A stretch of 64,000 bases of DNA. It comes from Alphaproteobacteria bacterium (GTDB lineage: Bacteria; Pseudomonadota; Alphaproteobacteria; WRAU01; Hepatincolaceae). The position numbers and the translations under genes were made by a program. Positions 167 through 48,648 of this stretch are shown here, piece by piece. Below the pieces are notes generated by a model, which worked only from the letters and a program-made list of their open reading frames with translations, was not told the DNA's origin and did not search any database. The stretch lies in the NCBI GenBank assembly GCA_009780035.1, contig WRAU01000006.1, forward strand, positions 1-64,000, read 5' to 3'. Within the stretch, counting starts at the first letter, position 1; each line of letters opens with the position of its first letter.

Positions 167-248
167 CTAATAAGAAATGTTTCTTTTATAGAAGACTGCC
201 TAACAATCACAAGAATAATAGCAATATTTTATAAAATAGTCAAACAAA

Positions 249-349
249 AATTAAATATCTTGTTTTTTATGTTGTTGCTTAGTCCCTTATATATGCTTAT
301 ATGCTACAGGACAAAGCTCCTAATAAAAACTCCAATATATTTAAATTTT
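249..349. repeat. imperfect palindromic element, family Q copy 1
   Basis: The outer arms are AT-rich and roughly complementary around a core containing ATGCTACAGGACAAAG, which recurs almost unchanged in the copy at 4991-5086. It lies between tRNA-Arg and plsY and can fold into a long hairpin. I see no gene in this 215-base gap. Confidence 0.5.
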
Positions 350-381
350 ATCATATTTTTGGATTGCTATGCTGTTATTTC

Positions 382-3511: not shown

Positions 3512-4993
3512 ATGACTAATTTAATTGAGGGTAAAACAGGTTTTTGGGAAGTAGTAATTGGGCTTGAAACTCATGCCCAAATTATTTCAAAATCAAAATT
3601 ATTTTCTGGCAGTTCAACGCTTTTTGGCAGCTCACCTAATACTCATGTTTCTTTTATAGATGCAGGAATGCCGGGAGTTTTGCCGCGCCCTAATCAATTT
3701 TGCATAGAGCAGGCAGTTAAAACCGGATTAGCATTAGACGGCGAAATTAATTTAACATCTTATTTTGATAGAAAACATTATTTCTATCCTGATCTTCCTT
3801 TCGGCTATCAAATTACCCAATTTTACAAGCCGATTATGGAGCATGGTAAAATGCTGATAGAACTGGAAGACGGCACTGCAAAATTTATTGGCATTACAAG
3901 ACTTCATATAGAGCAAGATGCTGGAAAGCTATTGCACGAACATCATCCAAATAAAAGTTTTGTAGATTTAAACAGAGCAGGTGTGGGTTTAATGGAAATA
4001 GTTAGCGAACCCGATATTCGCTCAAAACTTGAGGCAGCAACTTATGTTAGTAATTTAAGAACACTGCTGCGGGCAATCGGCACTTGCGATGGCAATATGG
4101 AAGAAGGCTCACTGCGGTGTGATATTAATATTTCAGTTAGAAAATCGGGTGAAGATTATCGCACACGCGTGGAAGTTAAAAATGTTAATTCCATAAAATT
4201 TTTGCAGCAGGCTATAGATTTTGAAGTAGAGCGTCAAATTGCCGTTTGGGAAGATGGTGGTGAGGTAGTTCAAGAAACTAAACTTTTTGACCCATCTACT
4301 GGAAAAACTTTTTCTTTAAGAAAAAAAGAAGACGCCGGCGGCTATAGATATGTAAGAGACCCGGATATTCTGCCGTTGATACTAGAATCCACATATGTAG
4401 AAAAAATTAGAGAATCGCTGCCGGAATTACCGCAGGCTAAAAAAGAAAGGTTTATTGCTGAATATTCTTTAACATCATATGAGGCGAATATTTTAACTAT
4501 TGATGCAGAAATATCAGCTTTCTTTGAAAAAACTCTAATTAAAGAAGATAGAAGCATTAGAAACCCTAAGATGGCTGCTAATTGGATAACTACGAATTTA
4601 TTTGCTTTGCTTAAAGAAGAAGGAATCAAAATAGGAGAATCTAAAATTTCTGCAGAACAATTAGGCGGAATGATAGATTTAATTGAGGAAGAAATTATTT
4701 CTTCTAAAATTGCAAAAGAAGTTTTTGAAACTATGTGGACTGATGCAAATTTTTTTGGCAAACCTCCACTATTAATTGTAGAAGCAAAAGGGCTTAAACA
4801 AATTACCGATAACACAGAAATTTCAGCCCTAGTAGATAAACTGTGTGAAGAAAATATGGATAAAATAGAGCAAATTAAATCCGGCAAAGATAAACTTTTA
4901 GGCTGGTTTGTAGGGCAGATAATGAAAGAAACCGGAGGAAAGGCTAATCCTGAGGTTGTAAATACCTTGCTTCATAAAAAAATAACTGGGTAA
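3512..4993 (+). CDS. gatB: Asp-tRNA(Asn)/Glu-tRNA(Gln) amidotransferase subunit B
   Basis: The 493-aa subunit binds mischarged tRNA, activates its side chain with ATP and amidates it. The GLETHAQ motif near residue 17, the HYFYPDLPFGYQITQ block, SLRCDINISVR and VEVKNVNS are all family signatures. The C-terminal helical tail (GatB/YqeY domain) is complete. An AGGAAAG site precedes the ATG. It ends in TAA and is followed by a Q-family palindrome that may serve as the operon's end hairpin. Confidence 0.97.
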   Translation: MTNLIEGKTGFWEVVIGLETHAQIISKSKLFSGSSTLFGSSPNTHVSFIDAGMPGVLPRPNQFCIEQAVKTGLALDGEINLTSYFDRKHYFYPDLPFGYQITQFYKPIMEHGKMLIELEDGTAKFIGITRLHIEQDAGKLLHEHHPNKSFVDLNRAGVGLMEIVSEPDIRSKLEAATYVSNLRTLLRAIGTCDGNMEEGSLRCDINISVRKSGEDYRTRVEVKNVNSIKFLQQAIDFEVERQIAVWEDGGEVVQETKLFDPSTGKTFSLRKKEDAGGYRYVRDPDILPLILESTYVEKIRESLPELPQAKKERFIAEYSLTSYEANILTIDAEISAFFEKTLIKEDRSIRNPKMAANWITTNLFALLKEEGIKIGESKISAEQLGGMIDLIEEEIISSKIAKEVFETMWTDANFFGKPPLLIVEAKGLKQITDNTEISALVDKLCEENMDKIEQIKSGKDKLLGWFVGQIMKETGGKANPEVVNTLLHKKITG

Positions 4994-5086
4994 TTTTTGG
5001 TCTTTTTGGATTTCTATTCATAAATTTTGAAAGGGTATGCTACAGGACAAAACTTTTAAATATAAATCAAAAAAATCCTCAAAATT
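4991..5086. repeat. imperfect palindromic element, family Q copy 3
   Basis: Arms TAATTTTTGGTC... and ...CCTCAAAATTA pair imperfectly around a core with TATGCTACAGGACAAAA, shared with copy 1. It starts at the gatB stop codon. The remaining 235 bases up to tRNA-Ser hold no gene that I can see. Confidence 0.55.
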
Positions 5087-5321
5087 ATTGAAAAGTTTTA
5101 GAAGTATTAAATTTTAACAATTTTTAAAAAAGTAGTTGAATAAGTTTAGGATTCCTTATATACTTAGATAGTCTCTGTTTTGGTGAGTGTTTAAAAAGTG
5201 AAGTTTTCTCTTCTTATAATTTACAAAACCCGCCTCGCGTAGAGTTAGGTTTAGTTTTTTGATTGGAAACTGAATAAATAATTAAAGTTTTGCAGTTTGT
5301 TAAAACTGCTAAGCTAAATAA

Positions 5322-10124: not shown

Positions 10125-10184
10125 TGTCATACCGGCGAAAGCCGGTAGCCACTTATGGCTTAACTGTTTTTCAACGGTATGACG
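10125..10184. repeat. GTCATACC palindromic repeat, family P copy 1
   Basis: Two short palindromes, the left one GTCATACCGGCGAAAGCCGG..., the right one ending ACGGTATGAC, make a nested hairpin between the MscS gene and apt, which converge here. Related copies occur at 19454, 30949, 33140, 36178, 43859, 47455 and partly at 13853, 38410 and 56222. Confidence 0.75.
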
Positions 10185-14027: not shown

Positions 14028-15272
14028 CTAAATTTTATCAGCATCATTATGCGGGTTAGTTTCAGGTAGAGCTATGCATACTGCATAAAGCACAGCTGCT
14101 GCCGCTACATAAAACACTAAAGAAGCTTCTATGCCATAGCTGCCCCAAATTAAGCTCCAAACTATAGTAAGCAAAGTGTAGCCAACATAAGTTCCAGCCC
14201 ATAAATAGCCGAATATTATAGTAACTTTCTTTGGAGATAATCCTTTCATTTCATGGGGAATATTCATGAAAATCGGATACTGAATAAACATAAAAAATCC
14301 GGCAATAAAGGCAACTAAATAAGACATAACTTTATACTCAGTATAAGATATAATAAATAACAAAGCCATGCTAACCACCATCATAAATCCAGATATATAA
14401 AGCACAGTTTTACGATTAACATTCTTTTTTCCATACATAATTCCTACTGGAGTTCCTAGAATTGCACCGCCGGCTACCATTAAGCCAATTAAAGCTCCAT
14501 TTAACCCAAGAGTTGATCCTAAAATAGCAGGCAAAGAAGTTAGTGCTAGAATATATAAAAATACAAATCCAGTAAATACTGCAGTGTATTTCCAAATGAA
14601 GCTGGTTTTTATAACTGCGCCATAAGTAGCGGTTGGGTCGGCAACTGCAGATCCGCCTCCGTGCACATTAAAGTCTTCGGCAAAAATCAGCCATAAAATT
14701 AGTAAAACTACCGATACGCTGGCAATTGCTGTAAGAGTTAATTGCCAATCTAGTTTTAAGCTATCGGCAAAGAAGAAAAATAGCAAAGAAGCAATAAATG
14801 CACCCACATTGTAAGACAGCACATTAAATCCTGCTGCTATTACTTTTTTATCTTGCGGAATATAGTTTGTAATAACTGGATTAACATAAACAACAAGAAT
14901 AGATCCGCCCAAAGCCATTATCATTCTAGCAAAAGTATAAGCCCAATAATTTGGCATATGGATGGCTACCAGCGAGAACATCAGCATTATTAAAGCTAAT
15001 ATTGCAGCTTTTTTAGGACCCATTTTAACTAAAATTATTGCAGCCAGCAAATTGGCAATAACGCGCGCGGTGGTAATTGAGTAGTTGATTACCTGAGCAA
15101 CAATAGGGCTTACCGGATGACCAAAGAAGTAATCAATAATTTGGCTGCTAAGCATAGATCCGCCAACCCAGCTCATAGCAAAGTTTACATAACCAACCCA
15201 AAGGATGGCAATCATTATTACGCCACGCCATACATGAGGAGCTGCGGTATTTGTGGTAGAAGAACTACTCAT
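14028..15272 (-). CDS. MFS transporter
   Basis: 414 aa with twelve predicted membrane segments. The first conserved loop reads KMGPKKAAI (the A-motif position, normally GxxxDRxGRR, is shortened), and the second half starts with YGKKNVNRKT. The overall layout is like OxlT/NarK-type anion or nitrate porters, but the substrate cannot be named. It heads a minus-strand group with CoA-ester enzymes, so an organic acid is a fair guess. Ends in TAA. Confidence 0.8.
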   Translation of the reverse strand: MSSSSTTNTAAPHVWRGVIMIAILWVGYVNFAMSWVGGSMLSSQIIDYFFGHPVSPIVAQVINYSITTARVIANLLAAIILVKMGPKKAAILALIMLMFSLVAIHMPNYWAYTFARMIMALGGSILVVYVNPVITNYIPQDKKVIAAGFNVLSYNVGAFIASLLFFFFADSLKLDWQLTLTAIASVSVVLLILWLIFAEDFNVHGGGSAVADPTATYGAVIKTSFIWKYTAVFTGFVFLYILALTSLPAILGSTLGLNGALIGLMVAGGAILGTPVGIMYGKKNVNRKTVLYISGFMMVVSMALLFIISYTEYKVMSYLVAFIAGFFMFIQYPIFMNIPHEMKGLSPKKVTIIFGYLWAGTYVGYTLLTIVWSLIWGSYGIEASLVFYVAAAAVLYAVCIALPETNPHNDADKI

Positions 15273-15287
15273 AATATTTTCCTTATT

Positions 15288-15402
15288 TTGTATTTAATTT
15301 TGGTTTTTTTACTTTTATATTCATTCACTTTTCCTTTTGTGTATGTTGAATACACGGCGAGTCAAAGCTCTTGATATAAAAGCAAAAATCCTCAAAATTA
15401 AT
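15288..15402. repeat. imperfect palindromic element, family Q copy 4
   Basis: Left arm TAATTTTGG...ACTTTTATAT and right arm ATATAAAAGC...CAAAATTA are near complements, with an ATACAC...CAAAGCTC core. It fills the gap between the CoA-transferase and MFS genes. Confidence 0.6.
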
Positions 15403-15405
15403 ATA

Positions 15406-16959
15406 TTATAGCTTTAAGCCCATTGCTGAATCTTTAAATATTTCAACAGGCATGGTTTTTAAATCGGCAGATATAATTGGTTTAAAATCCATCAATGCTA
15501 ATACATCTTTTTCTAAATCAATGCCCGGCGCAATTTCAATAAGAGTTAAACCTGCTTTCTCCATTTTAAAAACAGCTCTTTCTGTAATGTAATAAACCAC
15601 TTGCCCGCTTTTTTGAGCTAATTCGCCACTGTAGGTAATTTGTTCAACATTTTGCACGAATTTTTTTACAGTGCCTTCAGTAGCAATATTTAGTTTAGAA
15701 TCTGCAATATTGATTTCTAACTTACCAGCAGTAAAAGTTCCGCAGAAAACTACAGTTTTAGCGTTTTGGGTAATATTAACAAAACCGCCGGTACCGGCAA
15801 TTTTTGTACCAAATTTAGAAACATTAATGTTGCCAGCTGCATCGCATTGCGCTAATCCTAAGAAAGCAATATCAATTCCGCCGCCATCGTAATAGTCAAA
15901 CATATAAGATTGATGAATGATTGACTGCGGCACATAAGATGCTCCAAAGTCTAACCCGCCAGCTGGAGTTCCGCCGAATATGCCGGGTTCTACAGTCGGT
16001 GTTAAAGCATCTTCCAAACCTTCTTCTTTTAAAACCATTGGGATAGCCTCAGGCATGCCAATGCCGTAATTAACTATTTTATGATTTTTGTTAAATACCA
16101 TTGCTGCTCTTCTGCCAATTACTTTTCTTTCGCTCATGGGAAAGGTTAATGCTCCGGCTTCTAAAATAACATTGCCCTTAACAAAACTGGTATTAAATTG
16201 TGTAGCAAAAGTTTGCATATTCTTTTTTTCGTCCGATGCAATTACCACATAATCTACAAGAGCAGCAGGGATTTCAACTAATTTTGGCTCTAAAGATCCG
16301 CGTCTAACTTTATTTTTAACCTGAACGATAACTTTACCGCCGCAGTTTCTGGTAGCCATAGCAATGGCTAAAACTTCCAAAGTTAAAGGTTCTTCTTCAA
16401 AACTAATGTTGCCGTCTTCATCGGCATAGCTTCCTTTTAGAATAGCAATATCAATTTTAAATGGCTTATAAGATAAATATTCTTTGCCGTCAAAATTAAT
16501 AAGTTCTACTAATTCTTCAGTGGTGGCTTCGTTCAGTTTACCGCCGGCAATTCTGGGATCAATAAAAGTATTTAATCCTACATGAGTAATGTATCTTGGT
16601 CTGCTGGCAGCAATATCGCGGAATAAATGCGACATTACGCCTTGCGGAAAATTGTAGGCTTCAATTTTATTTTCAGCAACTAAGGGTTGTAATTTTGGCG
16701 CTAAGCCCCAATGTCCGCCGATTACTCTTTTTAATAGCCCCGAATGTCCGTAGTGGTTTAAGCCTCTGTCTTTACCATCACCAATTCCAGCAGCATATAC
16801 TAAAGTTAAATTTTTCGGCGATTGTTTGGCTAAGAAAGATTCTTCAACTTTAGAATGAATTTCTTCAGCCACACCTGTTCCAATAAAACCGCCGGCAACA
16901 ACGGTAGAATTATCGGCAATTAAGTTTACAGCCTCTTCGGCATTAATAAATTTTACCAT
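15406..16959 (-). CDS. acyl-CoA:acetate/propionate CoA-transferase (YdiF/Pct type)
   Basis: 517 aa, a single-chain family I CoA-transferase with both the alpha and beta halves. The N-terminal domain has the VVAGGFIGTGVAEEI loop, and the catalytic Glu lies in TPTVEPGIFGGTPAGG near residue 320-334. Such enzymes move CoA between acetate, propionate, acetoacetate or lactate. The neighbours (thiolase, acetoacetyl-CoA reductase) suggest short-chain acid or PHB-related metabolism. Start ATG after AGGAGATTAATT. Confidence 0.88.
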   Translation of the reverse strand: MVKFINAEEAVNLIADNSTVVAGGFIGTGVAEEIHSKVEESFLAKQSPKNLTLVYAAGIGDGKDRGLNHYGHSGLLKRVIGGHWGLAPKLQPLVAENKIEAYNFPQGVMSHLFRDIAASRPRYITHVGLNTFIDPRIAGGKLNEATTEELVELINFDGKEYLSYKPFKIDIAILKGSYADEDGNISFEEEPLTLEVLAIAMATRNCGGKVIVQVKNKVRRGSLEPKLVEIPAALVDYVVIASDEKKNMQTFATQFNTSFVKGNVILEAGALTFPMSERKVIGRRAAMVFNKNHKIVNYGIGMPEAIPMVLKEEGLEDALTPTVEPGIFGGTPAGGLDFGASYVPQSIIHQSYMFDYYDGGGIDIAFLGLAQCDAAGNINVSKFGTKIAGTGGFVNITQNAKTVVFCGTFTAGKLEINIADSKLNIATEGTVKKFVQNVEQITYSGELAQKSGQVVYYITERAVFKMEKAGLTLIEIAPGIDLEKDVLALMDFKPIISADLKTMPVEIFKDSAMGLKL

Positions 16960-16973
16960 AATTAATCTCCTGT

Positions 16974-17078
16974 ATTTTTGAATATCTTGGCTTTCTACGG
17001 TGTTGCAAAGCAGTTAATGTATTATTTTCATACACTTCGCAGCAAAGCTCCTAGTATAAAGCCAAGATATTCAAAAAT
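16974..17078. repeat. palindromic element, family Q copy 5 (21-bp perfect arms)
   Basis: The outer arms, 16974-16994 and 17058-17078, are perfectly complementary over 21 bases. The loop carries CATACACTTCGCAGCAAAGCTC, the family core. It is the cleanest copy and lies between the CoA-transferase and thiolase genes, where it would form a strong hairpin in the mRNA. Confidence 0.8.
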
Positions 17079-17097
17079 TATTAATAAATTTCAAATA

Positions 17098-18309
17098 TTA
17101 AGCAATATTTTCTACTAAAATAGCAATACCCATGCCGCCGCCGATACATAAAGAGGCAATGCCGTATTTCTTTTTAGTTCTTTTCAGCATATGAACTAAG
17201 GTTGTTAGCACGCGCGCACCGCTTGACCCAATAGGGTGCCCGATAGCAATTGCTCCGCCTTGAATATTTACTTTTGCCATAAATTCTTCTTTGTTTAATT
17301 TATGCTGCTCGCAAAGCTCCTTAACTACACCCAAAGATTGAGCAGCAAAGGCTTCGTTAAGCTCGAAAATATCCACATCATTAATAGAAATATCGGTAGT
17401 TTTTAGCAGATTATTAATAGCGCCAACCGGACCTAATCCCATAACAGCTGGGTCAAGCCCGCTTTGTCCAATGGCAATAATTTTAGCCATAGGCTTAAGG
17501 CTATTTTTAGACACATAATCAGCAGATGCCACAATAGCTGCAGCTGCACCATCGTTAAGCCCAGAAGAGTTTCCAGCAGTAACAGTGCCGCCTTCTTTTT
17601 TGAAAGCAGGGTTTAATTTTGCTAATTTTTCAAGAGTAGTATCACGGTTGATATACTCGTCTATTGCAACTACTACATCACCTTTTTTACCTTTAATTAC
17701 GACAGGGATAATTTCGTCTTTAAATAATCCTGCATCTTGGGCAGCTATGGCTTTCTGTTGAGATGCAAAGGCAAAGGCATCTTGTTCTTCACGAGTTAAA
17801 CCATGTTTTTCTGCAATATTTTCAGCAGTGATGCCCATATGGTAATTATGAAAAGCGTCAGTCAAGCCATCGGCTATCATGGTGTCGGTAAGTTTTAAAT
17901 CACCCATTTTCGCGCCTCCACGAGCCGTATAAGGCAGAGCATAGGCAGCCTGCGACATAGATTCAGTTCCGCCGGCAATGTAAATTTCGCCAACGCCTGA
18001 TTTAATATTAATAAAACTTTGGTTTACAGCTTTTAAGCCGCTGCCGCAAACCATATTAATGCCATAAGCTGGAATGGTATTCGGCAATCCACCATGAATA
18101 GCAGCTTGTCTAGCAATATTTTGCTTATGCCCAGCCGATAGAACATTGCCCATAATAAGCTCTGCAACATCAGCAGGATTAATTTTATGGGTAGTAATTA
18201 AATGATTTATAACAGGGGCAGCTAATAGGGCAGGAGAAACTCCTGATAATGCTCCTAAAAATTTACCCACTGGGGTTCTTTTAATGTCAACTATATATAC
18301 TTCTTTCAT
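17098..18309 (-). CDS. phaA: acetyl-CoA acetyltransferase (thiolase)
   Basis: 403 aa. It condenses two acetyl-CoA to acetoacetyl-CoA, or the reverse. All thiolase signatures are present: the nucleophilic Cys in NMVCGSGLKAV near residue 88, NEAFAAQS, GGAIAIGHPIGSSGAR with the catalytic His, and the second Cys in LCIGGGMGIA. The gene is upstream of the CoA-transferase and downstream of the reductase on the same strand. The symbol is by role with the adjacent reductase; atoB would be equally valid. Confidence 0.92.
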   Translation of the reverse strand: MKEVYIVDIKRTPVGKFLGALSGVSPALLAAPVINHLITTHKINPADVAELIMGNVLSAGHKQNIARQAAIHGGLPNTIPAYGINMVCGSGLKAVNQSFINIKSGVGEIYIAGGTESMSQAAYALPYTARGGAKMGDLKLTDTMIADGLTDAFHNYHMGITAENIAEKHGLTREEQDAFAFASQQKAIAAQDAGLFKDEIIPVVIKGKKGDVVVAIDEYINRDTTLEKLAKLNPAFKKEGGTVTAGNSSGLNDGAAAAIVASADYVSKNSLKPMAKIIAIGQSGLDPAVMGLGPVGAINNLLKTTDISINDVDIFELNEAFAAQSLGVVKELCEQHKLNKEEFMAKVNIQGGAIAIGHPIGSSGARVLTTLVHMLKRTKKKYGIASLCIGGGMGIAILVENIA

Positions 18310-18320
18310 ATGATATACTC

Positions 18321-18430
18321 CTAGTATTTTAAATATTTTGGCTTTCTACTTTGTTGCTTTGCTACTCATGTATTAGTTATACACTTCGCAGCAAAGCTCC
18401 TCGTATAAAGCTCAAACTATTTAAAATATT
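18321..18430. repeat. palindromic element, family Q copy 6
   Basis: Outer arms ATTTTAAATATTTTGGCTTT and a near complement, plus an inner GCTTTGCT/AGCAAAGC stem. It shares the ACACTTCGCAGCAAAGCTCC core with copy 5. A further copy follows at once. Confidence 0.75.
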
Positions 18431-18432
18431 AT

Positions 18433-18546
18433 ATTGCTAATCTTAAATATTTTGGCTTTCTATGCAAAAGTTTTTCAGTTCATGTATTATTCATACACTT
18501 CACTAAAAAACTTTCACATATAAACTACAAGCTATTTAAAATAAAA
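18433..18546. repeat. palindromic element, family Q copy 7
   Basis: Starts TCTTAAATATTTTGGCTTT, has a CATGTATTATTCATACACTTC middle and an AGCTATTTAAAAT end. Copies 6 and 7 are in tandem and fill the whole gap between thiolase and reductase genes. Confidence 0.7.
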
Positions 18547-18561
18547 TTGTTAATTTTAATT

Positions 18562-19290
18562 TTACAGTCTCATGCCGCCGTTAACGCCGATAACCTGACC
18601 GTTGACATAAGAAGATTCATCGCTGGCTAAAAATAAAGCTACATTAGCAATTTCTTGTGGTTCGCCTAATCTTTTAAGAGCTGACTTATCGCGGATTCCT
18701 TGCAATACTTCTTCAGGAACAGTTTTCATCATATCAGTATTAATATATCCCGGAGCTATAGCATTAGTTCTAATATTTTTAGTGCCTTTGCGAGTAAATT
18801 CCTTAGCCCAAGTATAAGTTAAGCCGATAACACCGGCTTTAGTTGCAGCATAGTTGGTTTGTCCGATATTGCCGTATTGTCCTACGATTGACGAAATGTT
18901 GATAATAGAGCCTTTGCCTTTATCTTGCATATTAGAGATAACTGCTTGAGTAACATTGAAAACACCCTTAAGATTCACATCAATTACGATGTCCCAATCA
19001 GCTTCGCTCATTTTGCCCATTAAAGAATCTTTAGTGATGCCGGCATTATTAACTAAAACATCAATTTGACCTTGTTCAGCGATAATTGTATCAATAGCTT
19101 CTTTAATGCTGTCTCTGTTGGTAACATTCATAATTATAGATTTAATATTGCCTTGTTCAAAAGCAGCTGGTTTCATATCTGCAGCATAAACAGCCTTAGC
19201 ACCTTGAGCGGCAAAAGTTTCGCAGATAGATCTGCCAATGCCTTGAGATCCTCCGGTTACTAAAATAACTTTATCTTGTAGTCTAGTCAT
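18562..19290 (-). CDS. phaB: acetoacetyl-CoA reductase (SDR family, PhaB-like)
   Basis: 242 aa. I chose the ATG at 19290 (MTRLQDKV), which follows a GGAGAA site, over a longer start 21 bases upstream. NAD(P) motif VTGGSQGIGRSI, NNAGIT, catalytic Ser in NISSIVGQYGNIGQTNYAATKAG with Tyr and Lys, and the PGYINTDM segment are all present. Members reduce 3-ketoacyl-CoA or -ACP; next to thiolase the acetoacetyl-CoA role is likelier than FabG. I see no PHA synthase in the window. Confidence 0.85.
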   Translation of the reverse strand: MTRLQDKVILVTGGSQGIGRSICETFAAQGAKAVYAADMKPAAFEQGNIKSIIMNVTNRDSIKEAIDTIIAEQGQIDVLVNNAGITKDSLMGKMSEADWDIVIDVNLKGVFNVTQAVISNMQDKGKGSIINISSIVGQYGNIGQTNYAATKAGVIGLTYTWAKEFTRKGTKNIRTNAIAPGYINTDMMKTVPEEVLQGIRDKSALKRLGEPQEIANVALFLASDESSYVNGQVIGVNGGMRL

Positions 19291-19453
19291 GATTTGATTC
19301 TCCATAATCATTTAATAGTTAATACTAATAATACATTATTAGAGTGAATTTAATTTTCTTTGTCAAGTTGAATAGCGCATAATTGATATATGTCAATTAT
19401 TAAGCAAAGGGAATATTATGGTCTATGTGTGTTGTATTTTATGAATTGCATCT

Positions 19454-19567
19454 TGTCATACCGTGAGAGCTTTCAGCTACGGTATCCATTTACAAAATAT
19501 TCAAGTATTAAAAAAACTAAGAATTTAGCATAAGAACCCAATAGATACCGGCTTTCGCCGGTATGAC
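19454..19567. repeat. GTCATACC palindromic repeat, family P copy 2
   Basis: A left GTCATACCGTGAGAGC...ACGGTATCC unit and a right GATACCGGCTTTCGCCGGTATGAC unit flank an AT-rich middle. It occupies the gap between the reductase and rquA genes. Confidence 0.7.
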
Positions 19568-19583
19568 AGAAATTGGGAAATAC

Positions 19584-20456
19584 TTATTCTTTAGAAGAAT
19601 CTTCAGGAACTTCTCCTAATTCTTCATCTGTTTTTTTCGTAACCACAACTTTTTGATAAACACCGCCGAAATAAGTAGTTTGCTTCCAATTATATTTGCC
19701 GGCTCTATTTTTAGTGATAAAATCTTTAATTTCGCGATGCCACATAGCATTGGCAAAAGGTTCTAAGGTATAGTTAATAAAGCGGAGGATTTGTCTTACT
19801 GGATTATAATAAGAAGGGTTGTAATAATCTATAAATACAATTTTACCGCCGGTTTCATCAATTACTTTCAAAGCATTTTCAATAATGCGTTTTTTAAGGG
19901 GATCGGGCACTTCATGCAGTAAAAAGTAAATGCCTACTACATCATATTGTTTATGGTATGGTTCACTGGCATCTTGCAGCCACATATCTATATTTTCTTC
20001 ACCCTCAACGCCTTTAAGTTTAATGGCTGCGCGTTTCAGCTGATGCGGCACTACATCTATTATATCTAGGCTGCCGTTTTTGGCAACTTTTTCAGCTAAA
20101 AGTCTTACTACATTGCCGTAAACATGGGCCACCTGCAGAACTCTATCGGTAGGGCTGAATTCTTCTAAATAGGCGCGCATCAGCTTCCAGCCTTGACCGA
20201 ATAAAATTGTATGATAAACAATGGGTCTGTCTAGTAGATCTATATTTTTAGGCTTAACATAAGCCCAGTTATAAACATCAACCAAATAATTAGGGATTTT
20301 ATGTTGATTTAAGGATTCGATAGATTCATCTTCCAACATAGGAATTCCTGTGTTTTTATCAATCTCTAGTTCTTTTTCAATTTTAGAGATTTCCTCCACA
20401 GATAAGTTAAGTTCCTCTTGCGGACCGGCGTTATCCTTTTTATTATCTTGCTGCAT
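19584..20456 (-). CDS. rquA: rhodoquinone biosynthesis methyltransferase-like RquA
   Basis: 290 aa. RquA converts ubiquinone to rhodoquinone, the low-potential quinone used for fumarate reduction without oxygen. The family hallmarks are visible: NYLVDVYNWAYVKP, FGQGWKLMRAYL, a degenerate SAM motif VLQVAHVYGNVVRLLAEKV in place of the usual Gly-rich loop, DIIDVVPHQL, FLLHEVPDPLKKR and FIDYYNPSYYNPVR with the following LEPFA..MWHREI. The N-terminal 45 residues are an acidic extension. It stands alone on the minus strand, next to the CoA-ester group. Confidence 0.9.
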   Translation of the reverse strand: MQQDNKKDNAGPQEELNLSVEEISKIEKELEIDKNTGIPMLEDESIESLNQHKIPNYLVDVYNWAYVKPKNIDLLDRPIVYHTILFGQGWKLMRAYLEEFSPTDRVLQVAHVYGNVVRLLAEKVAKNGSLDIIDVVPHQLKRAAIKLKGVEGEENIDMWLQDASEPYHKQYDVVGIYFLLHEVPDPLKKRIIENALKVIDETGGKIVFIDYYNPSYYNPVRQILRFINYTLEPFANAMWHREIKDFITKNRAGKYNWKQTTYFGGVYQKVVVTKKTDEELGEVPEDSSKE

Positions 20457-20575
20457 TTCTATATATCCAATTATTCACATATAATTATATATTATACACA
20501 AAATATGAATTAATTTCATTGTTTTTTTTAATAATTTGTTATAATAATTAGAATTATAGATTATTGAGGACTTTA

Positions 20576-21664
20576 ATGATAGATTTTGATGGTGTTGATA
20601 AAAATGCCAGAATAGTAGTGGCTATGTCAGGAGGGGTAGATAGCAGCACAACCGTTGCTTTACTTAAGGAAGAAGGCTATAAAAATGTAGTCGGCATGAC
20701 TTTGCTGCTGCATGAAAATAATTTAGAAAAAGGAATTGTCTCTAAAGATCAAAATGTGAAGGCAGACTGTCTTCGTGTAGCAGAAACTTTGTCAGTTGAA
20801 CACCATTTTGTGGATATTAAAGATTTATTCATGGAAGAAATTATTAATCCTTTTTTAGATGCCTATCTGCATGGAATTACTTTTAATCCTTGCGTTAAAT
20901 GCAATCGAGTAATTAAATTCGGCAAAATGCTAGATGAAGCTAAAAAACTTAATGCTGATATACTAACTACTGGGCACTATATTAAATGGGGACGCGGCAG
21001 CGATGGTAAGGGTGCTATTTACCGCGGAAAAAATTCAAATCGCGACCAAAGCTATTTTTTATCGCAGGTAAAAAAAGAATCCTTGCCGTATATTAGGTTT
21101 CCCTTATATTCTTATACTAAAGATATGGTAAGAGCAGAGGCTGAACGGTTGGGAATCCATGTGGCGCAGAAAAAATCTTCAGCAGATATTTGTTTTGCAG
21201 GAATTGGTTCTTATAATGATATTTTAAAAACTCAAGGCAAGGAAATTATTCCCGGCGATATTGTTGATATGCAGGGGAATGTTATCGGGCGTCATGAAGG
21301 TATTCATAATTTTACAGTGGGACAGCGTAAGGGTGTTGGCATTGGCGGTGTTGGCAATCCTTTATATGTTATGAAAATTGATGCGGAAAATCATAGAATA
21401 ATTGTTGGCAATAAGGAAGATTTACAAGTGCGGGAAATTTTTATCTCTAATGTTAATTGGCTGGGCGATGGCGATTTTGATTTTGCAGAAAAAAAACTAT
21501 TTGCAAAAGTTAGGGGCAGCCAACCTTTGAAAGAAGCAGAGGTTTATCCGTTAGGTGAGGGAAAGGCAAGGGTAGTATTTAAAGAAAATATTTTTGGTGT
21601 AGCACCAGGTCAGATTTGTGCTTTTTATGATGAGGAACAATTGTTGGGCGGCGGCTATATATAA
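20576..21664 (+). CDS. mnmA: tRNA-specific 2-thiouridylase MnmA
   Basis: 362 aa. It thiolates U34 of tRNA-Lys, -Glu and -Gln. PP-loop AMSGGVDSS near the N terminus, first catalytic Cys in NPCVKCNRVIKF, second in SSADICFAG, and the FTVGQRKG segment are all present. I chose ATG 20576, which follows TGAGGA, over an in-frame TTG 12 bases earlier. Ends in TAA. Confidence 0.95.
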   Translation: MIDFDGVDKNARIVVAMSGGVDSSTTVALLKEEGYKNVVGMTLLLHENNLEKGIVSKDQNVKADCLRVAETLSVEHHFVDIKDLFMEEIINPFLDAYLHGITFNPCVKCNRVIKFGKMLDEAKKLNADILTTGHYIKWGRGSDGKGAIYRGKNSNRDQSYFLSQVKKESLPYIRFPLYSYTKDMVRAEAERLGIHVAQKKSSADICFAGIGSYNDILKTQGKEIIPGDIVDMQGNVIGRHEGIHNFTVGQRKGVGIGGVGNPLYVMKIDAENHRIIVGNKEDLQVREIFISNVNWLGDGDFDFAEKKLFAKVRGSQPLKEAEVYPLGEGKARVVFKENIFGVAPGQICAFYDEEQLLGGGYI

Positions 21665-21711: not shown

Positions 21712-22749
21712 ATGGAAGATAAATCGTTTAAACAATATTTAATAGATGTGCTGTTAAAAACTAAAGAAACTTCTTGGGAACTTTTTAGAATTATGATTCC
21801 TTTGATTCTACTTATTAAAATTATTCAAGAGCTGAATCTTTTGCAATATTTTGTTTATCCCTTTGAGTTTATTATGGGTGCAGTAGGAATTCCCGATATT
21901 TATGCACTGGCTTGGCTAGGGGCAATTTTTAACACCTGCTATATGGCAATGACTTTAATTGCCGTGTTTTTTAACGATTATCCGCTAACTGTAGAGCAAA
22001 TATCCGTATTGGGCTTAATGATTCTTATCAGCCATAGCTTAATTATTGAAGGGGCGATTATCAGTAAATTTAAAGTAAGCGGCATATATTCCATAGTGTT
22101 AAGGGTAGTATGCTCGCTTTTGTTCGGCTATTTATTTCATATCACCGCTCAATATTTCGGCATTATGCAGCAGCGGGCAACCTCAATATTTTATGGCAGC
22201 AGCGAGGTATATCATCAAAATTTCATGGAGCTTTATTTTGCGGGAAATTTAGCCGCTGAGTTTAATGTTTGGCTGCAGAATGTTTTATTTTGGTTTTTAG
22301 CACAGGCTAAAACCATGTGCTTAATTGCTTTTGTGATATTTGTAATTTTCTTATTGATTCAATTTATGAAAGATTTTAATATCGTCCAAAAAATTGATAA
22401 ATTATTTAAACCATTTTGGTCGGTTATGAGTATTTCTAAGCGGAATTATACGGTAACCTCGATTTGTTATTTAATTGGGCTTTCTTATGGCTATGGCATA
22501 TTAAAAGAAGAAAGCGAAAAAAATATCTATTTTAGAAAAGATCAGCCCTTTAAAGTGCTGAGCTTTTTAGCGATAGTCCATGCGGTAATTGAAGACGGCA
22601 TAATTTTTATGCTGCTAGGAGCAAGCGGCTGGATTGTAATTGTAGGCAGAACTATAATTGGTATTTTAGTGGTGGCTGTTTTGGTGAGGCTAGTTTTGCC
22701 AAGACTTTCAAGTGAAACTAAAAATAAATTTTTATATAAAAGGGTGTAA
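21712..22749 (+). CDS. nucleoside-recognition (Gate) domain membrane protein
   Basis: 345 aa with about nine membrane segments. The pattern, with two similar halves each starting in a helix before GxPxxxAxxWLGA-type or SYGYGILKEE segments, fits the SpmA/YjiH-like nucleoside-recognition family, whose members are inner-membrane proteins of poorly known transport function. It lies 47 bases after mnmA and 2 bases before serS, so the three genes are probably one operon. Confidence 0.6.
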   Translation: MEDKSFKQYLIDVLLKTKETSWELFRIMIPLILLIKIIQELNLLQYFVYPFEFIMGAVGIPDIYALAWLGAIFNTCYMAMTLIAVFFNDYPLTVEQISVLGLMILISHSLIIEGAIISKFKVSGIYSIVLRVVCSLLFGYLFHITAQYFGIMQQRATSIFYGSSEVYHQNFMELYFAGNLAAEFNVWLQNVLFWFLAQAKTMCLIAFVIFVIFLLIQFMKDFNIVQKIDKLFKPFWSVMSISKRNYTVTSICYLIGLSYGYGILKEESEKNIYFRKDQPFKVLSFLAIVHAVIEDGIIFMLLGASGWIVIVGRTIIGILVVAVLVRLVLPRLSSETKNKFLYKRV

Positions 22750-22751: not shown

Positions 22752-24023
22752 ATGTTAGACATGAAATTAATTCGGCAGAATCCCGAAATATTGAAAAATG
22801 CACTAAAAATGCGGAATATGGATTTATCTATAGACAATTTACTGCAGCTAGACAGCAAACTGCGGGAAAAACAAGTTGAATCGCAAAGCCTTGCAGCAGA
22901 AAGAAATAAACTTGCAAAAGAAATTGGGGTTTTAAAATCTCAAGGAAGCGATGCTGGTGAATTACTTGCGAAAGTGGCAAAATCTAAAGAGTTAGAAGAC
23001 AAATTAGTTAGTGAAACTAAAGCTCTTGAGGCAGAATTGTTTGATAAACTATCATATATCCCTAACATTCCAGATTCTAGCGTGCCTTACGGAGTTGACG
23101 AAAAAGATAATGTTGAAGTTCGTAAAGTAGGAAAAATTCAGGAATTTTCTTTTAAGCCGAAAGAACATTATGAGCTAGGTGAAGAGCTAGGCATGATGGA
23201 TTTTGAAGCTGCCGCCCAAATGGCAGGCAGCCGATTCGTGGTTTTAAGCGGCGATTTAGCAAGGTTAGAACGGGCAATTGCCAGCTTTATGCTAGATTTG
23301 CATACGGGAAAAAATGGCTATAAAGAACATAGTCTGCCGGTAATTTTGCGGGATAATGCTTTGTTTAATACCGCACAGCTGCCAAAATTCAAAGAAGATT
23401 TATTTAAAGTAGGGGAAGAGCAATGGTTGATACCTACAACAGAAGTTCCTTTAACTAATCTTGTGGCGAATAAATTTATTGAGCGGGAAAAATTGCCGAT
23501 TAGAAGCACTGGGCTTTCGTTATGTTTCCGCAGTGAAGCCGGCAGTGCCGGACGCGATACTAAGGGTATGCTAAGGCAGCATCAGTTTTATAAGGTAGAA
23601 TTGGTATCTATTGCCGATCCTGAAAAATCTTTTGATGAACTAGAATATATGACAAGCTGTGCCGAGGAAGTATTAAAACAGCTAGAAATTCCGTATCGTG
23701 TAGTGTTGCTATGCAGCGGCGATATGGGCTTTAGTAGTTGCAAAACCTACGATATAGAAGCGTGGCTACCCGGACAGAATACCTACCGCGAAATATCCAG
23801 CTGCTCTAACTGCGGCGACTTCCAAGCTAGAAGAATGGGCGCTAAGGTGAAAGAAAAAGTAAATGGCGAATATCCATTCACCCACACCCTAAATGGCTCA
23901 GGCTTAGCCGTCGGTAGAACCCTAATCGCCATCATGGAAAACTACCAACAACCCGACGGCAGCATAATAATCCCGAAAGTTTTGCAGAAATATATGGGTA
24001 AGGAAATTATTGAAAGGCATTAG
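22752..24023 (+). CDS. serS: seryl-tRNA synthetase
   Basis: 423 aa. It has the N-terminal coiled-coil arm that grips tRNA-Ser (about residues 28-100), then the class II motifs: FKEDLFKVGEEQWLIPTTEVPL, CFRSEAGSAGRDTKGMLRQHQFYKVE (motif 2) and LNGSGLAVGRTLIAIMENYQ (motif 3). Normal length. Ends in TAG. Confidence 0.97.
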   Translation: MLDMKLIRQNPEILKNALKMRNMDLSIDNLLQLDSKLREKQVESQSLAAERNKLAKEIGVLKSQGSDAGELLAKVAKSKELEDKLVSETKALEAELFDKLSYIPNIPDSSVPYGVDEKDNVEVRKVGKIQEFSFKPKEHYELGEELGMMDFEAAAQMAGSRFVVLSGDLARLERAIASFMLDLHTGKNGYKEHSLPVILRDNALFNTAQLPKFKEDLFKVGEEQWLIPTTEVPLTNLVANKFIEREKLPIRSTGLSLCFRSEAGSAGRDTKGMLRQHQFYKVELVSIADPEKSFDELEYMTSCAEEVLKQLEIPYRVVLLCSGDMGFSSCKTYDIEAWLPGQNTYREISSCSNCGDFQARRMGAKVKEKVNGEYPFTHTLNGSGLAVGRTLIAIMENYQQPDGSIIIPKVLQKYMGKEIIERH

Positions 24024-26785: not shown

Positions 26786-27781
26786 TTAATTCTCCCTAAT
26801 TATTGATGATGCCAGAAGGTTTTTTAAAACATTTTTATATTCGCTTTCTGCAGTTATATTTTCTAAATTCTGCAATCCGCGTTTAACATAAGAATTTGCC
26901 ACTTCTATAGATTTTTCTACGATATTATATTTTGCAATATACGATAAGACAGTTTCAAAATCTCCGTCTTTTTGATTCAAATCACCGAAGACTCTGCCTA
27001 AAAATACTTTCTCTTCCGCATTGCATTGCTCCAACACCAAAAGAATAGGGAGAGTAATTTTACCCTCTTTAAAATCGGTGCCGATACCTTTGCCAAGTGT
27101 ATCAACCGTGCTAGAATAATCTAAAATATCATCCATAATTTGAAAAACAATTCCCAAATTCACACCATACTGATAAATATTTTCTATATTTTTCTCAGAT
27201 TCACAAGCAAGCATTGCTCCAACCTTAGCAGCCGCAGCGAATAAAGAGGCAGTTTTGGCGAAAATAATTTCTTCGTAATTCTCAAAAGTAATTTCAAGAT
27301 TGTTAATATAAGCCAGCTGCATAACCTCGCCTTGGGCTATAACGCTGGAAGCGTTAGATAAAACCTCTAAAATCGGCAGAGATTCCACTTGCACCATTAG
27401 TTCAAAAGATTTTGTGAATAAAAAATCACCCACTAAAACACTGGCTTTGTTGCCCCAAATGTTGTTAGATGTAGCAACTCCGCGCCGAGAATCATTTTCA
27501 TCAACCACATCGTCGTGCAACAGGGTAGCCGTATGAATAAACTCAATGCAAGATGATAATAAAATATGATTGCTGCCGTTGTATCCAAATAATTTTGCGG
27601 TTGCTAGTGTTAAAATCGGGCGGATTCGTTTACCGCCGCTAGCTACAATATGCGAGGCAATCTGCGGAATAAGCTCTACCTTGTTTTGCATTTTTTCTAA
27701 AATTATAGCATTAACACTTTGTAGTTCTGGCTCTAACATGCTTTTTATAGTGTATGCAATATTAGAAAAATTATTAGACAT
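26786..27781 (-). CDS. ispB: long-chain polyprenyl diphosphate synthase (IspB-like)
   Basis: 331 aa. It makes the isoprenoid side chain of ubiquinone, and so also of rhodoquinone. GGKRIRP (residues 49-55), first Asp-rich motif LLHDDVVDENDSRRG (88-102), and second FQIMDDILDYSS are present. The chain length cannot be told from the sequence; octaprenyl is likely. It shares 40 bases of upstream region with the divergent trmN6-like gene. Confidence 0.92.
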   Translation of the reverse strand: MSNNFSNIAYTIKSMLEPELQSVNAIILEKMQNKVELIPQIASHIVASGGKRIRPILTLATAKLFGYNGSNHILLSSCIEFIHTATLLHDDVVDENDSRRGVATSNNIWGNKASVLVGDFLFTKSFELMVQVESLPILEVLSNASSVIAQGEVMQLAYINNLEITFENYEEIIFAKTASLFAAAAKVGAMLACESEKNIENIYQYGVNLGIVFQIMDDILDYSSTVDTLGKGIGTDFKEGKITLPILLVLEQCNAEEKVFLGRVFGDLNQKDGDFETVLSYIAKYNIVEKSIEVANSYVKRGLQNLENITAESEYKNVLKNLLASSIIREN

Positions 27782-38685: not shown

Positions 38686-38770
38686 GCGGGTATGGTGGAA
38701 TTGGCAGACACGCTGGATTTAGGTTCCAGTGGCGCAAGCCGTGGGGGTTCAAGTCCCTCTACCCGCACCA
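38686..38770 (+). tRNA. tRNA-Leu(TAG)
   Basis: 85-base type-II tRNA: acceptor GCGGGTA/TACCCGC, anticodon loop TTTAGGT with anticodon TAG, variable arm TGGCGCAAGCCG, T loop GTTCAAGTC and encoded CCA. It lies at the left edge of the accessory region; no copy of its 3' end is seen on the far side. Confidence 0.95.
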
Positions 38771-38893
38771 CTCAATAGTATATTTGCTAATTATTCCTAA
38801 AAAATATCTAATTAGTATTAGTATGAATTTGCTAAACTCTTTTAAAAATATTATAATTATACAACAGTGTTCCTTTGCTTTATGGAGGTGATT

Positions 38894-39670
38894 ATGAGTA
38901 ATGAAAATGTTTTAGTAAGTTTAGAAGATTTAAGTAAACAAAATGGTATAACTTATTGGACTTTAGAGGATATAGCTTTATTTTTTGATTACAAAGATAT
39001 TAGCAACTTTAAAAATGTTGTAAATAAAGCGATTGCTTTTTCTACGGAATTATTAGGTGATGGCGTTCATGAAGAATTTAAGCCTATTTTTGAAAATGAT
39101 AGATTGAAAACCTATAAACTAAGTAGATTTGGAGTTTTGCTTTGTGCTATGTTTGCATCTGAAAGTAAACCTAATGTAAAGGAAATAAGAATATCTTTAG
39201 CAAACTTAGCTAATTTTATGTTTCAAGATATAGAAAGATTAAGAGAAAGAAAAGAGCTTACTCATGGTGAAAAATATATGGTTAATGTAGCTTATAATCA
39301 AGGGCTAGATAATAATGATATTGGAATGTTTAAAGATGCTGGTTATAGAGGCATGTATAATATGGGTTTAAAAGACCTTAAAAATTATAAAGGAGTATCT
39401 CAAAATGCAACTTTGTATGATTTTATGGGAATAACAGAATTAGCAGCAAATACATTTAGAGTTACTCAAACAGCAGAGAATATTAAAAGAAACAATATCA
39501 ATACTAGAGCTGGAATGATTGGAGTAGCTAAAGATATAGGCAAGCAAGTTAGGGGTATCGTAATGGAAAATACTGGAAATACTCCAGAAAATCTACCTAC
39601 AGAACCAAAAATAAATGTTATTAATCAAAAAGTTAAAAAAGGCAGAACACAAATAAATAAAGATAAATAA
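38894..39670 (+). CDS. DinD-like DNA-damage-inducible protein
   Basis: 258 aa. I chose ATG 38894, which follows GGAGGTGATT closely, over a start 27 bases upstream. The C-terminal half matches DinD: GYRGMYNMGLKDLKNYKGV, MGITELAANTFRVTQTAENI, GKQVRGIVMENTGNTPENLP. The N-terminal part (ITYWTLEDIALFFDYKDISNFKNVVNKAI) is BRO/KilA-like in pattern. E. coli DinD is SOS-induced and inhibits RecA. Placed between tRNA-Leu and the tail cluster, it could tie the cluster to DNA damage; that is inference. Confidence 0.8.
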   Translation: MSNENVLVSLEDLSKQNGITYWTLEDIALFFDYKDISNFKNVVNKAIAFSTELLGDGVHEEFKPIFENDRLKTYKLSRFGVLLCAMFASESKPNVKEIRISLANLANFMFQDIERLRERKELTHGEKYMVNVAYNQGLDNNDIGMFKDAGYRGMYNMGLKDLKNYKGVSQNATLYDFMGITELAANTFRVTQTAENIKRNNINTRAGMIGVAKDIGKQVRGIVMENTGNTPENLPTEPKINVINQKVKKGRTQINKDK

Positions 39671-39785
39671 GATTAACTATAAACTTTTTTAGTTGTTGGT
39701 ATAAAAATATCTAATAAGTTTTTTGAATATAACACCCTAATTACTTCATAATTTAAATAATTATATTATTAAATACAAAATTCTC

Positions 39786-39814
39786 TTGACAATCATATTC
39801 TTTTAATGTATAAT
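39786..39814 (+). promoter_or_regulatory. consensus sigma-70 promoter of the tail cluster
   Basis: TTGACA (39786-39791), exactly 17 bases, TATAAT (39809-39814). Both hexamers are perfect matches to consensus. It is followed by a 90-base leader with a CTATAAG/CTTATAG hairpin, before the first tail gene at 39904. Confidence 0.8.
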
Positions 39815-39903
39815 AAAAAAGTTAAAAAGCTATAAGCAAGAAATTCTTAGCAATTTCAGCTTCTTATAGGCAAACATTAAAATAGTGCAAGAGAATTAAA
39901 ATT

Positions 39904-40344
39904 ATGGAAACAAAACAAATTTTTAAACTTATAGAAAGCACGGTGTGAGATCTACTAAGTAAAACCAACGCTGAAGCAAGTATTTCCTTTATACAGGGAG
40001 ATTATATACTTGCAATCAATAATATTGTTAAATCTGGTGATGGCAACATTTATATTGCTAATGGCAGCATTGTTAAAAAGGTTGATTTAAATGACGATTT
40101 AGACAATGGCGAATTTAACTTAATAAACAAGAATCATAATTACAGCGATACTAGCGGAGATTGTGAGATTGATATTTATCAGAAAATTTTCGTATATTCT
40201 ATTCCCAACGATTTAACAATTATAGATTTAAAAGCAGAACTTAAAGCTAAAGTTTATTTGCACGAGCAAAACGAACATTTAGCAGTAGAAACATTTGATG
40301 TAAGAGTGAAAGAAGAACTAGCTATTCATAATAAAAATAAATAA
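39904..40344 (+). CDS. first tail-cluster gene, tail-terminator candidate (one in-frame TGA)
   Basis: 146 aa when TGA at 39946-39948 is read as Trp (ESTVWDLLSK). It ends in TAA. The small size and position just before the sheath match tail terminator/completion proteins of contractile-tailed phages, but I see no decisive motif. With the standard code the frame would stop after 14 codons and no start is available soon after; no reading frame of this length is seen otherwise, so it would be missed by normal gene calling. Confidence 0.6.
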
Positions 40345-40482
40345 GGCGGCAGCAAGGGTCAGCCTTATTAAAAAATTTCTTTTTAGGAAAACATCCTTAA
40401 TGGCGGATTTTTCTAAAAGAAAGCACCCCTAGATATATATAACTATCTTAGGGATAACAATTTACAACAAGGAGTAAAAAAC
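40345..40482 (+). promoter_or_regulatory. structured leader before the sheath gene
   Basis: Two inverted repeats: TTTCTTTTTAGGAAAA with TTTTCTAAAAGAAA, and CCCTAGATA with TATCTTAGGG. The strong GGAGTAAAAAAC ribosome site follows. These hairpins probably tune translation or processing of the tail mRNA. Confidence 0.4.
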
Positions 40483-41565
40483 ATGGCAGGATATTTAGTT
40501 GATGAAATTATAAAAATCACTTTCGAGCTAAGTAAAACAGCGAAACTACCAAGAGCGTATCGTAGATTTGCTTGAATAACTGCAACTAATGGCAGTGATA
40601 GTAAAATTATCATGGATTTATCAAATTATGTCTCTAAATTAGAACAATTCGATGAAACCCAGCAAGATTTTATTAAATTATGGTTCTCACGCGGCGGTCA
40701 GTATTTAACCGTTTATAAATATACAGCTGAAACATCAACACCTGAGATTGATGAAAACGGTGATCCTGTTTTAGATGAAAACGGCGATGAAGTAATGATA
40801 ACTATCCCGGCAACCCAAGTAAAGAACTTAGATATTCTTGAAGGCGTTGTAATTTTAGCCGGCAATAGCTTTAGCCTGCAAGAAACAATGTATAATTCTG
40901 CAGATACCGAGCAAACCAATGAAGAATCTGGCAAATATTGGATTCTTTCAGCAAAACAATCAGACAGCATCTCAGAAACTCTTAAAACTGTTCACGGAAT
41001 TCATATTTTTATGACAGCTGAAACAACTTCTAGCACAGGAGCAAGCATTGATAAGCCAATCTTTGAATATTTTGCCCCATATACGCAGGATAATTTTTAT
41101 AAGCAAAATAGCTTTGGCAATTCGTCAATTGCAGGCATTAGCTTAAAAACTCTGCAATATTTAGATGCTAATAATTTGGGTGCATTAGTTTATTTTCCAG
41201 AATTCCAAGCCAATTATTACTACAATGTCGGCGATACTAAAGGCTTTACTTTCAATGCCAATATGCTTCGTAAAGATTTAGAATCAGTTATAAAAGAAGA
41301 AGGTTTTAAAGTTTTAATGCGCGATAATACTTACAATCAAGATACTATCAGCGCCTTAGAAAAAGTTTTAGCTGATACTGCTGAATATTACAAAGGGCAG
41401 AACAAAATCGGAAGCTATGCTACAGCCAGCATTCCGTTTAAAAAACAATTGGAAAATGATATTTTAGCTAAAACTATCAAAGGGTTAAGCCTAAGCTATC
41501 AAGTGCTGCTAGAAGCCAAAAAAGCAGAGATTACCATCAAAGAACAATTAACTGCGGTTGCGTAG
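40483..41565 (+). CDS. tail sheath-like protein (one in-frame TGA)
   Basis: 360 aa with TGA at 40573-40575 read as Trp (RRFAWITATN); ends TAG. The large size, its place just before a 131-aa tube-like gene, and the alternating strand/helix pattern with a C-terminal KAEITIKEQL helix fit a sheath or DUF3383-type sheath protein of myophages. Two other Trp residues are TGG (KLWFS, GKYWILS). A standard-code reading would lose the N-terminal 43 residues. Confidence 0.6.
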
Positions 41566-41592
41566 TATATTAAATTAATCAGGAGAAAAACT

Positions 41593-41988
41593 ATGATACA
41601 CCCAATGAATATAATTATTTTGTGAGGCGATTATAATCTCACTAATATGTTCAATCTAATTTCCACAGGAGAGCTGCCGGCGTTAAAACCCTATACTACA
41701 CAGCTAGAAATTATGCCTAACGGTAAATCGCGGCAGACGGCTAGCGTATCAACCAATTTAGATTTAGCAATTACAGTTAGCAGAGATAGCGCTAAAGCTA
41801 ATTTAGATATATTATTAGGCGAGTTTGAAATCAATACCGTATCTTCGCTAAGAATAATTGATAAAACTAGCGGCGAAGTTATCGGCGATTGGCAGAAAGC
41901 AGTATTGAAAGATATTCCTTCAGCAGGTGCAATAACTGAATCTGCTAATGATGTAGTAATAACTTTCAGCTGCATTAACGAGATGTAG
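41593..41988 (+). CDS. tail tube-like protein (one in-frame TGA)
   Basis: 131 aa with TGA at 41623-41625 as Trp (NIIILWGDYNL). Beta-rich, with the size of tail tube proteins (FII/DUF3277 type) and directly after the sheath. GDWQKAVLKDIP carries a TGG Trp. AGGAGAAAAACT precedes the ATG; stop is TAG, with the lysozyme ATG 2 bases later. Confidence 0.6.
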
Positions 41989-41990
41989 CC

Positions 41991-42446
41991 ATGCCGAAAT
42001 ACATAACCCAAGCCATTGAACTGATTAAAAAATTTGAAGGTCTTTCTTTAAATGTATATTTAGATGTGGGAGGATTGCCAACCATCGGCTACGGACATTT
42101 AATTAAATCGCACGAGTTTTTTCCTTGTGCGATTACACAAGAACAGGCAGAATCTTTGTTAATGGCAGATTTAGAACCATTTAATAGGGCGCTTGACTGC
42201 ATTAAGGCAAAGATAGGCGATAATCAAAAAGCAGCAATTTTATGTTTAATGTATAACATTGGCGTTAATGCTTTTAAAAATTCAACGCTGCTTAAAAAAA
42301 TCAATGCTAATGCAGAACTTGCGGAAATAGAAGCACAGTTTATGGCTTGGGTTTATGTTAATAAAAAATCGGTAGCCGGTTTAATTAACCGACGAAAAAA
42401 AGAATTTGAACTATTTTCCCTAAAATATGGAGAAATTAATGACTAA
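41991..42446 (+). CDS. GH24 phage-type lysozyme (endolysin)
   Basis: 151 aa, a T4-lysozyme family muramidase without a signal peptide. The catalytic triad is visible: Glu16 in KKFEG, Asp25 and Thr31 in YLDVGGLPTIGYGH. LCLMYNIGVNAFKNSTLL is the second conserved region. It could act as the release enzyme or as a tail-tip lysozyme. No in-frame TGA; one TGG Trp. It overlaps the next gene by 8 bases. Confidence 0.9.
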   Translation: MPKYITQAIELIKKFEGLSLNVYLDVGGLPTIGYGHLIKSHEFFPCAITQEQAESLLMADLEPFNRALDCIKAKIGDNQKAAILCLMYNIGVNAFKNSTLLKKINANAELAEIEAQFMAWVYVNKKSVAGLINRRKKEFELFSLKYGEIND

Positions 42447-42855: not shown

Positions 42856-42917
42856 TGATATTGCAAAAATTTCTAAATAGTGTATTATTTTACTTGCATA
42901 TAAAAGAGGGGTTATTA

Positions 42918-43682: not shown

Positions 43683-43700
43683 AATAATTTTTAAATTTTC

Positions 43701-43729
43701 TTGACAGCAATTGTAAGTTGTATTATGCT
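43701..43729 (+). promoter_or_regulatory. promoter of a short RNA
   Basis: TTGACA (43701-43706), 17 bases, TATGCT (43724-43729). It starts 18 bases after the outer-membrane protein stop codon and leads into a short, terminated transcript. Confidence 0.65.
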
Positions 43730-43735
43730 ATAGAT

Positions 43736-48644: not shown

Positions 48645-48648
48645 AACC

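Follow-up and report, generated by a model that had tools for sequence, protein, structure and literature searches.

The window, by which we mean the whole stretch of 64,000 nucleotides that was analysed, carries the four open reading frames that an earlier note on this DNA had described, all of them on the minus strand and all confirmed in position. They are rquA, encoding a rhodoquinone biosynthesis enzyme of 290 aa (19584..20456), a predicted SDR reductase gene of the FabG/PhaB kind (18562..19311), a thiolase gene (acetyl-CoA C-acyltransferase; 17098..18309) and a CoA-transferase gene of the YdiF/FadX type (15406..16959), with an MFS transporter gene downstream of the latter on the same strand (14028..15272; PF07690, 83 bits). 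The SDR gene and rquA are separated by 272 bp (19312..19583), which hold two short hairpin repeats of the GTCATACCG type and fold with z = -3.0. Divergent from rquA, on the plus strand, lie mnmA for the tRNA 2-thiouridylase (20579..21664, the start being taken as the first ATG within the listed open reading frame 20564-21664), a gene for a Gate/nucleoside-recognition-type membrane protein (21712..22749), which matches PF07670 weakly at 24 bits, under the curated cut-off, and occupies the same place in the relatives, and serS (22752..24023), assigned from its open reading frame and conserved synteny. Further along, a minus-strand gene for an IspB-like polyprenyl diphosphate synthase (26786..27781; PF00348, 250 bits; octaprenyl synthase equivalog missed at 289 versus 412) possibly encodes the maker of the quinone side chain. 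The four family genomes that we compared all have rquA, the proteins of the three relatives being 65, 61 and 58% identical to that of the window, and the divergent arrangement of rquA with mnmA, the Gate-type gene and serS is uniform across them, which points to inheritance within the family. No rquA was found on plasmids or viral contigs.

The assignment of rquA rests on several independent features of its product. In a profile search the protein scored 251.5 bits (6.8e-75) against the NCBIfam equivalog NF038261, for which the curated cut-off is 175 bits. The motif VLQVAHVYGN, which the earlier note had pointed out as a degenerate SAM motif, spans residues 106-115 and bears out the assignment, as its first seven residues (VLQVAHV, 106-112) have Q and V at the diagnostic positions of motif I, where RquA proteins are marked by these residues in place of D/E and G (PMC7813818). 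Both aspartates of the SAM site are present: D134 aligns with D118 and D162 with D143 of the Rhodospirillum rubrum enzyme (PMC9814641), a three-residue insertion explains the shift in their spacing, and D134 is invariant and D162 is kept in 10/11 homologues. RquA converts ubiquinone (UQ) to rhodoquinone (RQ) with SAM as the amino donor (PMC9814641). Expression of a Desulfobacterota rquA in E. coli did not lead to RQ formation (PMC13386864), so that an rquA gene by itself is no proof of RQ. We conclude that the Hepatincolaceae protein is a genuine and ordinary member of a known family, with a predicted RQ-forming activity.

The genome to which the window belongs (G000) has 1.42 Mb and is 98.8% complete. 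Its family-mate G001 consists of a single contig of 1,340,442 bp with two 16S genes, and the flanks taken to both sides of each, 1.5 kb long, contained no 23S gene. G001 holds the primer site ACACGTGGGAATTTGGCT, which is specific for Hepatincola, and matches in size the 1.34 Mbp reported for Hepatincola Av (PMC9992710). G001 is Hepatincola Av, and the window, coming from the same family, therefore belongs to Ca. Hepatincolaceae (GTDB WRAU01). This family has been placed in the Rhodospirillales, apart from the Holosporales (PMC11724238); where a host is known, its members live extracellularly as gut symbionts of Ecdysozoa. An affiliation with the Rickettsiales or Holosporales, at which the small genomes, the unlinked 16S and 23S genes of G001 and the label 'Rickettsia typhi' on G003 had hinted, was discarded because G001 is Hepatincola Av. 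For the two remaining family genomes, the matching contigs are CANHGT010000005.1 and CAMCZU010000005.1; the latter (L015, of G003) comes from the public metagenome-assembled genome (MAG) labelled 'Rickettsia typhi', which is a Hepatincolaceae genome with a wrong label.

Ubiquinone genes, whose absence the earlier note had named as counter-evidence, are present. In G000, ubiT, ubiU and ubiV are adjacent and their products all score over the equivalog cut-offs, and each of the four family genomes encodes UbiU and UbiV. The genes ubiA and ubiD are also adjacent, UbiA scoring slightly under its equivalog cut-off (264 versus 275) and UbiD passing a subfamily cut-off. Flavin hydroxylases of the UbiH/I/F/L/M type (PF01494) were found in none of the four family genomes and in 14/14 control genomes; the PF01494 traces in the family are Rossmann matches of only about 30 residues. 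Neither UbiE nor UbiG nor UbiB was found in the roughly 360 kb of sampled stretches of the 1.42-Mb genome, a negative that carries no weight.

A second group of genes lies elsewhere in G000 (stretch L136), where aspA, dcu, sdhC, sdhD, sdhA, sdhB and ansB follow one another on one strand. The arrangement recurs as aspA-dcu-dcu-sdhCDAB in G001 and as aspA-dcu-sdhCDAB in G002, the contig of G003 being too short to show it, and complex II is encoded in a single copy in each of the four family genomes. Complex I is likewise found in all four, with nuoB, C, D, F, G, H, K and L in order in G000. As to the fumarate reductase for which the earlier note had proposed a search, a complex II is encoded beside aspA, dcu and ansB, and its flavoprotein is not of the FrdA type: SdhA matches TIGR01816 (sdhA_forward) and fails the FrdA equivalogs. 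Because SdhA is of the forward type, the reductase direction of complex II rests on context. In RQ users such as R. rubrum, a single SDH-type enzyme is thought to serve both directions. The Krebs cycle of Hepatincola keeps the part from succinate to oxaloacetate and misses the succinate-making steps (PMC9992710). The potential of RQ is about 160 mV lower, which suits the quinone to fumarate reduction (PMC13386864). Taken together, complex I, the one complex II next to aspA, dcu and ansB, and the O2-independent UQ genes argue that this member of the Hepatincolaceae very probably respires fumarate, as the earlier note had supposed, and most likely does so with RQ. Two FNR-like boxes matching at 9/10 bases were also present in G000, upstream of aspA (L136 12332-12618) and upstream of the SDR gene (window 19312-19583); against about 0.3 expected, an estimate from the window background, this count is weak evidence against chance, and the boxes are not repeated in the counterparts of the relatives.

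The genes suggest a scheme that would reach from RQ synthesis and the direction of complex II to the flow of substrates and the end product. UQ would be made without oxygen by UbiA, UbiD and the UbiT/UbiU/UbiV hydroxylation system, and RquA would turn it into RQ in a single step that needs Mn2+ and in which SAM donates its amino group, the reaction demonstrated for the R. rubrum enzyme. Placed between complex I and complex II, the quinone would link the two in an NADH-to-fumarate respiration, in which electrons pass from NADH through complex I and RQ to SdhCDAB acting as a fumarate reductase. Fumarate may be supplied from asparagine by way of aspartate (AnsB, then AspA), and Dcu would take up C4-dicarboxylates and release succinate. 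When oxygen is scarce, the yield would be the proton-motive force of complex I and the reoxidation of NADH; when oxygen is present, some species may use cytochrome bd or a haem-copper oxidase.

Since cytochrome bd is present, complex II could run forward too. In a reading built on this, complex II would act mainly as a succinate dehydrogenase on succinate from the host, passing electrons by way of UQ to either cytochrome bd or the haem-copper oxidase, and rquA would be kept for occasional anoxia only. This reading is consistent with the forward type of SdhA and with the existence of the oxidases, cytochrome bd being confined to G000 and G001 and the haem-copper oxidase to G001 and G003. We nevertheless consider it unlikely, because the sdh locus is tied to aspA, dcu and ansB, because the succinate-making Krebs steps are missing in Hepatincola, because neither oxidase was found in G002 (92% complete), and because UQ would be made, as far as tested, by the O2-independent route only (UbiU/UbiV present, PF01494 absent). 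G002, the genome of L014, has complex I, complex II and rquA, and its lack of an oxidase may reflect a missing contig.

The position of fumarate respiration as the preferred reading leaves the acyl-CoA genes beside rquA to be placed. The thiolase (TIGR01930, 457 bits) carries the conserved Cys, His and Cys catalytic motifs, and the CoA-transferase (PF01144) has E. coli YdiF as its closest solved relative (466 bits) and stays under the FadX equivalog cut-off. These two names given in the earlier note hold, and that of an acetoacetyl-CoA reductase is not secured: the SDR protein falls under the cut-offs of PhaB (220 versus 436) and AcAcCoA_reduct (253 versus 302), and the one model whose cut-off it clears is that of a FabG-type subfamily (247 versus 222). 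Synthesis of PHB by a phaCAB pathway was rejected, as the PHA synthase PhaC (PF07167) was found in none of the four family genomes while the Caulobacter control was positive. A cluster of this kind without PhaC could, as its genes would lead one to infer, make or use acetoacetate or 3-hydroxybutyrate. Among the four family genomes, G000 alone has the thiolase and CoA-transferase genes; G001, G002 and G003, all of which bear rquA, lack them. We also examined the flanks (854 kb) of 80 named rquA loci from a genome collection, two of which are the family members G002 and G003. Thiolase or CoA-transferase genes were near none of these loci (0/80), and sdhAB was near rquA in 13/80, in agreement with an earlier report of rquA close to complex II (PMC5953543). 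The idea that rquA and the acyl-CoA genes form one conserved unit was accordingly abandoned; with no conserved module on the acyl-CoA side, the pairing is a feature of one genome. The two are probably separate transcription units, and the thiolase/CoA-transferase cluster is a separate, genome-specific addition whose link to rquA is incidental.

These observations also bear on the proposal that rquA and the acyl-CoA genes are one functional unit, in which RQ would additionally donate electrons to enoyl-CoA reduction, in the manner of Ascaris mitochondria, with short-chain acids as the end product. The genes adjoin on the same strand in the window, thiolase, SDR and CoA-transferase would suit an enoyl-CoA route, and the absence of PhaC rules out PHB as the product. 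Yet the three relatives keep rquA without the thiolase and the CoA-transferase, the other rquA loci (0/80) give the same picture, a hairpin-bearing gap of 272 bp separates rquA from the acyl-CoA genes, and in the neighbourhood of these genes we saw neither an ETF nor a crotonase nor an acyl-CoA dehydrogenase, so that we hold this proposal to be very improbable.

The spaces between the acyl-CoA genes contain a dispersed, imperfect intergenic palindrome of about 110-125 bp that is ERIC-like in size and shape. Copies lie in the acyl-CoA module (window 15273-15410, 16961-17090, 18312-18435 and 18430-18548), elsewhere in the window (235-359, 1057-1185 and 4981-5097) and in the sdh locus (L136 9303-9430, 10827-10961, 12513-12641 and 13180-13315). 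Each tested copy folds with z of about -7, and the four copies of the acyl-CoA module show compensatory changes among them. A covariance model found about 17 places in 362 kb of the genome, the sdh locus and the acyl-CoA module accounting for four each, and gave no confident match in the stretches fetched from the three relatives. Rfam returned only chance microRNA matches on the acyl-CoA module, far under the gathering score, and an interpretation of the structured leaders as riboswitches was dropped because the same palindrome recurs across the genome, facing either way with respect to the genes. A second, shorter intergenic palindromic family of the form GTCATACCGGCGAAAGCCGGTAT occurs at window 10126-10180, 19454-19560, 31058, 38411 and 43860, at L138:5080 and at L139:3639. 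Judged by eye, the window also holds a prophage-like stretch at about 38867-50994, with many small unassigned open reading frames beside a tRNA (38686-38767), an antirepressor-like protein (38867-39670), a lysozyme-like endolysin (41991-42446) and a baseplate-like open reading frame (50368-50994).

In phylogenetic terms, RquA does not group among unrelated methyltransferases, a placement against which the earlier note had wished it checked. That the window protein is a UbiE-kind methyltransferase without a part in RQ synthesis is extremely improbable, for the shared superfamily and the weak matches of UbiE-type models in the profile search (about 23-26 bits) stand against a passed RquA equivalog, a motif I of the RquA type and clustering with the 80 named RquA loci. 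The four family proteins are monophyletic (100/100), and their stem measures about 1.0 change per column. When the longest branches were removed from the tree, they joined the alphaproteobacterial MAG sequences L048 and L053 (96/85) and not Terasakiella, a member of the organismal sister group of the Hepatincolaceae (PMC11724238). A join with Terasakiella, as expected for vertical descent from a shared ancestor, is disfavoured at p-AU = 0.045, a borderline value given on long branches with odd composition.

This clade touches on the origin of rquA in protists. In 2018, rquA was found in no Rickettsiales or Holosporales genome, and gut Rhodospirillales MAGs were proposed as donors of the Group A protist gene (PMC5953543). 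Since Hepatincola genomes first came out in 2023 (PMC9992710), the clade was not part of the 2018 donor test, and the Hepatincolaceae RquA is a branch previously missing from the tree used to seek such donors. We see a slim chance that gut-dwelling Hepatincolaceae, or an extinct sister group, were one source from which gut and anaerobic protists obtained their Group A rquA; what prompts the suggestion is the absence of the family from the 2018 tree, the extracellular life of the studied members in animal guts, and a long unbroken RquA stem to which unsampled or transferred sequences could attach.

The RquA family itself has been described before, and what appears to be new is its occurrence in the Hepatincolaceae, of which we found no earlier report. 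Two genome papers ascribe to Ca. Hepatincolaceae a truncated Krebs cycle, a minimal oxidative phosphorylation and an anaerobic growth that relies on fermentation or nitrate, and their main text does not mention rquA (its presence or role), fumarate or quinones. The genomes provide good evidence for fumarate respiration and O2-independent UQ synthesis in this family, and rquA together with the aspA-dcu-sdh genes would assign a role to the truncated Krebs branch, namely an amino-acid-fed fumarate respiration with RQ.

Compared with RquA of R. rubrum, the Hepatincolaceae protein shares the curated family model, motif I and both SAM-site aspartates, and differs in a longer N-terminal extension, common to the four family proteins, and in a genome setting in which rquA stays beside mnmA and serS. 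Enterobacteria carry out C4-dicarboxylate/fumarate respiration of the aspA-dcuA type. As in that system, an aspartase, a Dcu antiporter and a periplasmic-type asparaginase would supply fumarate to the reductase; in contrast to it, the genes are joined to sdhCDAB and the likely carrier is RQ, not menaquinone. The predicted path from complex I through RQ to a complex II acting as fumarate reductase also resembles that of RQ-based mitochondria, known from protists and helminths. In helminths RQ arises by a different route. Protists use RquA (PMC5953543), as the Hepatincolaceae are predicted to do. Finally, Magnetococcia make UQ solely by the O2-independent route and have RquA, and O2-independent-only UQ synthesis occurs together with a low-potential quinone (PMC11707229). 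The Hepatincolaceae are like them in having UbiU/UbiV and rquA, with no flavin UQ hydroxylase found. Unlike the free-living marine Magnetococcia, the Hepatincolaceae are an animal-gut family with reduced genomes, and they may represent the second lineage after Magnetococcia in which UQ is made only without oxygen, again in company with a low-potential quinone.
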